39,898 nucleotides of DNA, taken from assembly GCA_013003425.1 (NCBI GenBank), contig JABDJB010000093.1:1-39898 (forward strand), read 5' to 3'. Positions 12,913 to 32,488 of this stretch are shown in pieces. Numbering within the stretch: position 1 is the first letter of the stretch; the number at the start of each line of letters is the position of its first letter. The notes under the pieces are model-generated. The model made no database searches, was not told the origin of the DNA, and saw only the letters and a list, made by a program, of their open reading frames with translations. This DNA comes from Gammaproteobacteria bacterium. GTDB taxonomy: Bacteria; Pseudomonadota; Gammaproteobacteria; Steroidobacterales; JABDKV01. Position numbers and translations under genes: made by a program.

Positions 12913-12987
12913 GCGGGTGTCGTATAACGGTTATTACCTTGGCTTCCCAAGCCAAAGATGACGGTTCGATTCCGTTCACCCGCTCCA
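12913..12987 (+). tRNA. tRNA-Gly (anticodon CCC)
   Basis: Cloverleaf folded by eye: a perfect 7-bp acceptor stem GCGGGTG / CACCCGC; an anticodon stem TTGGC / GCCAA enclosing the 7-base loop TTCCCAA, giving anticodon CCC; a T-arm GACGG / CCGTT with the loop TTCGATT; discriminator T and an encoded CCA at 12985-12987. The D-arm is of the short glycine type. Its last 32 bases are repeated at 14089-14120. Confidence 0.93.
12956..12987 (+). repeat. Direct repeat, left copy (tRNA-Gly 3' end; att-like)
   Basis: The 32-base stretch from AGATGACGG to GCTCCA at the 3' end of the tRNA gene. An identical copy lies at 14089-14120, the usual signature of integration at a tRNA 3' end. Confidence 0.85.
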
Positions 12988-13862: not shown

Positions 13863-14211
13863 GTTTTGTCGGACTATAGACCACTATCAAGTCGCTGTGT
13901 CCTTAATTTGTTTTTTGCGTCATCTGGTGTGGTGTGAGCGCCGTCCGGGCGCAAAGATTCGCGGCAGGATGCCGTTCCGAAAAATGGGGAAAATAGTGTG
14001 GTGCACAATAGGGTGACAGATAAATGCGCAGATTCTGCCGATGGGTGGGTGGGGCAATCGAATTTTCGTTTTCCGCTTTTCAAGCTGGAGATGACGGTTC
14101 GATTCCGTTCACCCGCTCCACTCCTGTCCCGGCTGGCTGTTTCCATTCAGCGTACTCGCCCACTATCGGATTCGAGCAAGCAAATCCAGTGCGGCGGCGC
14201 GCGGAATGGCT
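13863..14211. other. Gene-free stretch holding a tRNA-Gly 3' fragment
   Basis: About 350 bases between the hypothetical gene and the MBOAT gene. The only recognisable content is the right-hand copy of the tRNA-Gly 3' end (14089-14120) and weaker similarity extending left to the anticodon-loop region (CTT..CAAGC at about 14077-14085). Short reading frames here overlap the tRNA remnant and look spurious. Confidence 0.6.
14089..14120 (+). repeat. Direct repeat, right copy (detached tRNA-Gly 3' end; att-like)
   Basis: 32 bases identical to the 3' end of the tRNA-Gly gene including CCA, but with no 5' half of a tRNA in front. It marks the far boundary of a roughly 1.13 kb segment, as expected for attL/attR after integration at the tRNA. 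Confidence 0.85.
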
Positions 14212-32450: not shown

Positions 32451-32488
32451 GGGGACAGTACATGTATATGCATACATGTACTGTCCCC
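32451..32488. repeat. REP-like palindrome, copy 2, between hpnH and hpnM
   Basis: A perfect inverted repeat with 17-bp arms (GGGGACAGTACATGTAT at 32451-32467, its complement at 32472-32488) and an ATGC centre. It is the sister of the element at 2651-2688 and differs by one paired change in the arms plus one central base. It sits 10 bases after hpnH and 65 bases before hpnM. With no T run it is not a standard terminator, but in RNA it would fold into a stable hairpin that could affect hpnM expression or mRNA stability. Confidence 0.9.

Follow-up and report, generated by a model that had tools for sequence, protein, structure and literature searches.

The two 38-bp palindromes of the window, by which we mean the whole stretch of 39,898 nucleotides analysed here (contig C93 of the source genome G000), are very probably non-autonomous miniature TIR doublets with a spacer of ~4 nt, spread by a TIRYT, a Y1/HUH single-strand transposase that the same genome encodes on contig C28. 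The unit would consist of two inverted TIR copies (about GGGGACAGTACATGTAT) of this TIRYT, joined by ~4 nt. The two window copies are:

2651–2688, no strand assigned: putative solo TIR doublet, copy 1, GGGGGCAG...CTGCCCCC; based on sequence, folding and a covariance model (65.0 bits)
32451–32488, no strand assigned: putative solo TIR doublet, copy 2, GGGGACAG...CTGTCCCC; based on sequence, folding and a covariance model (69.9 bits)

Sequence and predicted fold of the window palindromes

Both 38-bp palindromes are present in the sequence at the coordinates given by an initial annotation of the window. The copies differ at 3 of 38 bases, namely 5 (G/A), 16 (T/A) and 34 (C/T), with 5 and 34 being pairing partners. 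The annotation had described a change matched on both arms plus one differing central base; the matched 5/34 pair holds, but the third difference, at base 16, is not loop-neutral. The copy at 32451 is predicted to fold into a 17-bp stem with a 4-nt loop. The copy at 2651, with T at position 16, gives an 8-nt loop and a stem of 15 rather than 17 bp, since this base leaves the stem open at its top. DNA folding z-scores for the two copies were −7.0 and −8.4; for each of them, none of 200 shuffles folded as well.

With arms of at least 12 bp and loops of up to 8 nt, the window holds three perfect palindromes: those at 2651 and 32451, and a T-tailed hairpin at 2091–2119. Five dinucleotide shuffles of the window yielded no palindrome within the same limits. 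The T-tailed hairpin (AAAAAGGGCAGCCACTGGCTGCCCTTTTT) lies 35 nt past a DesA-family desaturase gene and is probably its terminator. The desaturase (776–2056) has an ISL3-transposase-like C-terminal tail, a fusion already named in NCBIfam.

A dispersed palindrome family in one genome

The initial annotation proposed counting copies genome-wide, and the two window elements turned out to belong to a larger family. In the 3,263,146 bases (3.26 Mb) and 115 contigs of G000, a pattern search allowing up to three mismatches found six places, and a covariance model built from eight copies found at least 11 family places, with 150 of 240 genome candidates scored. Among the matches listed, eight are solo full copies (two on C93, two on C29 and one each on C102, C113, C12 and C110). 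Two further copies, on C28, flank one Y1/HUH transposase gene, and the copy on C45 is a shortened 24-bp form that lacks ~14 central bases. A group I intron (Rfam RF00028; L024 1206–1446), which interrupts a tRNA-like gene and has CAT at its edge, sits 7 nt before this 24-bp element.

A single-arm search allowing up to two mismatches found 21 half-sites in G000. Because 19 of the 21 are arms of the palindromes, the doublet is the dispersed unit. The reversed single-arm pattern served as a control and gave 10 matches at up to three mismatches, all mismatch classes pooled. The spacer between the arms is constant at ~4 nt across the family. We aligned ten copies, excluding the 24-bp form; the dinucleotide AT directly precedes the left GGGG in seven of them and may belong either to the element or to its target. 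In most copies one of the arms has decayed. Alignment orientation was set by the better-scoring strand, and the centres of C29b and C110 favour the opposite strand, which would shift their decayed arm to the left. Since copies are few and one arm has decayed in most, the family may no longer be active.

Among 396 genomes of the order, a search with stricter filters found the palindrome at E ≤ 1e-5 only in the source genome itself, whereas 54 of the 396 contain a homologue of the C28 gene product at E ≤ 1e-30. The near-exact palindrome was also absent from wider genome and viral collections, from which records of the source genome itself may be omitted, and spread of the exact sequence is therefore visible in one genome only. 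Viral carriage was rejected as an explanation, the near-exact pattern being missing from viral contigs.

The C28 gene and its flanking repeats

The source genome has six Y1_Tnp genes. That on C28 (locus L010) carries the same palindrome on either side, in inverted orientation; the transposase of REP-associated type anticipated by the initial annotation thus exists as a distant Y1/HUH gene bearing the palindrome on both flanks. Both flanking copies have intact outward GGGG ends and decayed inward arms. The string GGGGACAG stands at both outer ends of the locus (L010:611 and L010:1413) and fits the TIRtron motif GGGGWSAS. A half TIR at L010 1290–1305 ends 4 nt upstream of the TIRYT start codon and is possibly an autoregulatory site.

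The product of the gene, P0001 (212 aa), matches Pfam Y1_Tnp at 41.3 bits (cut-off 23). Its HUH and tyrosine residues, H60, H62 and Y119, are invariant among 31 aligned proteins; L055, a partial gene at which no repeat was found, was excluded. The structure model of P0001 (pLDDT 92.5) has its best PDB match in 4er8, the structure of a REP-associated tyrosine transposase in complex with a REP hairpin, and the predicted fold supports the assignment as a TIRYT. C-terminal to the core, the model places helices at 175–187 and 194–204, and a family search matched no HTH family. Against NCBIfam REP_Tyr_transpos, P0001 scored 60.9, under the cut-off of 80, as expected for another subclass.

A flanking inverted repeat occurs at 31 of 32 homologue loci, mostly of the form GG(G/T)GACAGT..., with a mismatched-flank control available only for the named loci. 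Across many phyla, most homologues have flanking inverted repeats, typically starting GG(G/T)GACA(G/C). The named loci comprise 80 homologues from many phyla, of which 76 were usable and four were excluded for short flanks. A repeat score of at least 28 was reached at 57 of 76 named loci compared to 30 of 223 mismatched controls, and a score of at least 36 at 40 of 76 compared to 3 of 223, the control rate being raised because loci share TIRs. TIR distance correlates with protein distance (Mantel r 0.70 for 31 loci and 0.63 for 25 loci, p 1e-4; L055 excluded, and six distant loci further excluded from the second test), a correlation that could also be expected from shared descent alone.

Self-complementary or doublet TIRs were also found at L053, L054, L056, L057, L159, L179 and L230. 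L159 is the best named homologue (60% identity) and, like the C28 locus, has one doublet to either side of its gene. One 28-nt TIR is identical in L037, a TIRYT of the window's order (genome G037), and L202, a Woeseiaceae record, a match that may bear on how the order is classified.

Sibling families in the same genome

The other five Y1 genes of the genome each have their own flanking repeats. Those of L007, L008 and L009 begin GGGGTC, and the genes at L011 and L012 have REP-like flanking repeats (GTAGGAGCGG / GTGGGAGCGG). The L009 TIR occurs as 18 half-sites, forming six inverted pairs (64–97 bp) with two more at the gene and four elsewhere. The L008 TIR occurs as 27 half-sites, forming eight inverted pairs (69–106 bp) with three at the gene and eight elsewhere. 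Reversed-pattern controls gave three matches for the L009 TIR and none for the L008 TIR. Spacers in these two families are variable, and loops differ between most copies. The window itself contains a pair with the same TIR as the flanks of the L009 gene:

13056–13138, no strand assigned: L009-type inverted TIR pair of a sibling TIRYT family, GGGGTCAAGTCTACGC...GCGTAGACTTGACC; based on sequence and genome search; 68 nt past tRNA-Gly

In the same region, the 3′ part of tRNA-Gly(ccc) (12942–12987) is repeated ~1.1 kb downstream (14075–14120; 89% over 46 nt), which might be a trace such as old integration leaves. Single L008-type TIRs occur within the first 120 bases of four contigs (C5, C31, C48 and C109), a placement which suggests that repeats of this type break the assembly.

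Genomic sites and proposed mode of spread

The copy at 32451 lies 10 nt past the stop codon of hpnH, between hpnH and hpnM. Four family relatives all retain the gene upstream of each window site, and the element is missing in all four; in these relatives no exact empty site could be aligned for either copy, the intergenic DNA being too diverged. Five copies (that at 32451, C113, C29b, C12 and C28a) lie 0–10 nt past the stop codon of a long reading frame, gene ends near copies being those of mechanical reading frames, except for HpnH and HpnM.

For these palindromes we infer hairpin recognition, cleavage, copying, mobility and a target preference, which could be connected as follows. Hairpin folding of the unit would take place in single-stranded DNA, such as that of the lagging strand. 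The TIRYT would bind this hairpin and nick near its foot through the catalytic tyrosine, after which the unit could reach other intergenic positions by copying or by movement.

Strong stems, and several copies located 0–10 nt past stop codons, would also suit regulatory or mRNA 3′ structures, such as a terminator or a stabilising hairpin, maintained by host selection at gene ends. We regard this as very unlikely: a T tract is absent, the elements are missing from the same gene junctions in all four relatives, and the same sequence lies on the flanks of a transposase gene. Unlike the separate hairpin at 2091–2119, neither window element was picked up in scans for terminator-like sites, and identity as an intrinsic terminator was rejected. 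The same applies to membership of an Rfam RNA family, with zero matches at either element. An operator of a dimeric regulator would account for the perfect dyad, and the half-site just ahead of the TIRYT gene makes self-regulation by the TIRYT thinkable. However, the copies are found mostly just past gene ends and not before starts, their length is 38 bp and their spacer constant, and sibling families of different sequence but the same layout flank their own Y1 genes, all of which makes the operator explanation very improbable. Spread of TIR doublets by the C28 TIRYT is the reading that we retain.

Origin of the paired change

From the change matched on both arms, the initial annotation had derived selection for the folded form or, as a second option, repeated copying from paired variants. 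Two-sided changes are real, but they are weak evidence for selection, as one-arm differences dominate: between copies of the C28-type family we counted 162 one-arm versus 24 two-arm differences. In the ten aligned copies, 2 of 17 pairs are changed on both sides, in one copy each, a result that 19 of 500 shuffles reach; seven of the 17 pairs vary solely through loss of pairing. For each two-sided change there is a half-changed copy: C29a is altered in the right arm only at the 5/34 pair, and C28a in the right arm only at the C-G pair of C28b. Because one-arm differences dominate and half-changed copies exist for both two-sided changes, selection is not required.

The arms of individual copies nevertheless match each other slightly better than exchanged arms would, and more clearly so in the sibling families. 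When right arms were re-dealt among elements (L150 excluded as a near-duplicate of L141), arm mismatch within copies of the C28-type family was 22 versus a re-dealt mean of 25.8, with 126 of 20,000 permutations as low. The corresponding values were 7 versus 18.2 for the L009 family (6 of 720 permutations) and 11 versus 26.4 for the L008 family (3 of 5040). About half of the differences in these sibling families are mirrored (52 to 53 and 89 to 81). Within-hairpin copying would explain the arm matching as well as selection does.

We give about an even chance to the paired change having arisen by copying of one arm from the other, through a template switch in the hairpin, with no need for selection on the fold. 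The one-arm-changed copies (C29a, and C28a beside C28b) and the largely unmatched remaining differences speak for it. Half-changed copies are, however, equally expected when selection at transposition favours a second mutation by which pairing is restored, the mirrored differences in the sibling families fit either process, and compensatory changes are described as common in REPINs in a part of Bertels and Rainey (PMC3116915). Selection for the folded form is thus possible.

Comparison with known systems

TIRYTs are widespread and little studied. Three Y1 genes with their own TIR doublets, beside two with REP-type repeats, offer a compact setting for comparing DNA recognition, and the same genome is a setting for separating selection from hairpin copying behind paired changes. 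Only the occurrence of doublets in three families sharing one genome extends a little further than the TIRYT accounts cited here. More tentatively, and with some doubt, three families and three TIRYTs in one genome, with loops of 4 to ~45 nt and co-changing arms, may indicate that TIRYTs spread REPIN-like TIR doublets, in which case hairpin recognition would be the rule of the subclass and a simple TIR a half-site.

The family resembles REPs and REPtrons as described in sections of Nunvar et al. 2010 (PMC2817692) in that the palindrome is inverted around a Y1 gene and the predicted fold of P0001 is nearest to 4er8; part of PMC8266576 deals with how TnpAREP acts biochemically on REP hairpins. 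Unlike these systems, it has GGGGACAG ends, low copy number and no GTAG/GTGG before the stem. Neither tetranucleotide occurs 0–2 nt 5′ of the stem in any of the ten aligned copies, and a classical REP was rejected on this ground. Nor is the copy number REP-like (usually >100 per genome), at 11 places with 150 of 240 candidates scored. Of the repeat class suggested by the initial annotation, what stands is a dispersed family tied to a transposase of REP-associated type; its members are not GTAG-tagged REPs but fit GGGGWSAS TIRs.

With REPINs, as portrayed in portions of PMC3116915, the shared features are a doublet of inverted repeats flanking a Y1 gene, intergenic dispersal, the doublet as unit, and sibling families with unrelated loops and co-varying arms; extracts of PMC3116915 and PMC8049555 note that REPIN loops differ between copies. 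The C28 family departs from REPINs in being made of TIRs without GTAG/GTGG, with a loop of only 4 nt and about 11 copies versus hundreds.

A search of the literature for the motif strings turned up no related title among the publications listed. The closest system is that of the TIRtrons and TIRYTs, named by Di Nocera et al. 2013 with the TIR motif GGGGWSAS; self-complementary TIRs and TIR dimers are already reported in the relevant section of that paper (PMC3733652). In the subclass account of Quentin et al. 2018 (PMC6006769, in part), most TIRYTs fall into subclass 2.1, with no REP-like sequences near those genes. As in the systems outlined in those passages (PMC3733652, PMC6006769), a Y1/HUH gene lies between TIRs opening GGGGACAG, and TIR copies are dispersed. 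Unlike the TIRtrons outlined there, the C28-family TIR forms an almost perfect palindrome of 38 bp around a 4-nt loop, and its sequence is present in no other genome searched. We conclude that the element is a new but ordinary member of the TIRYT/TIRtron class.
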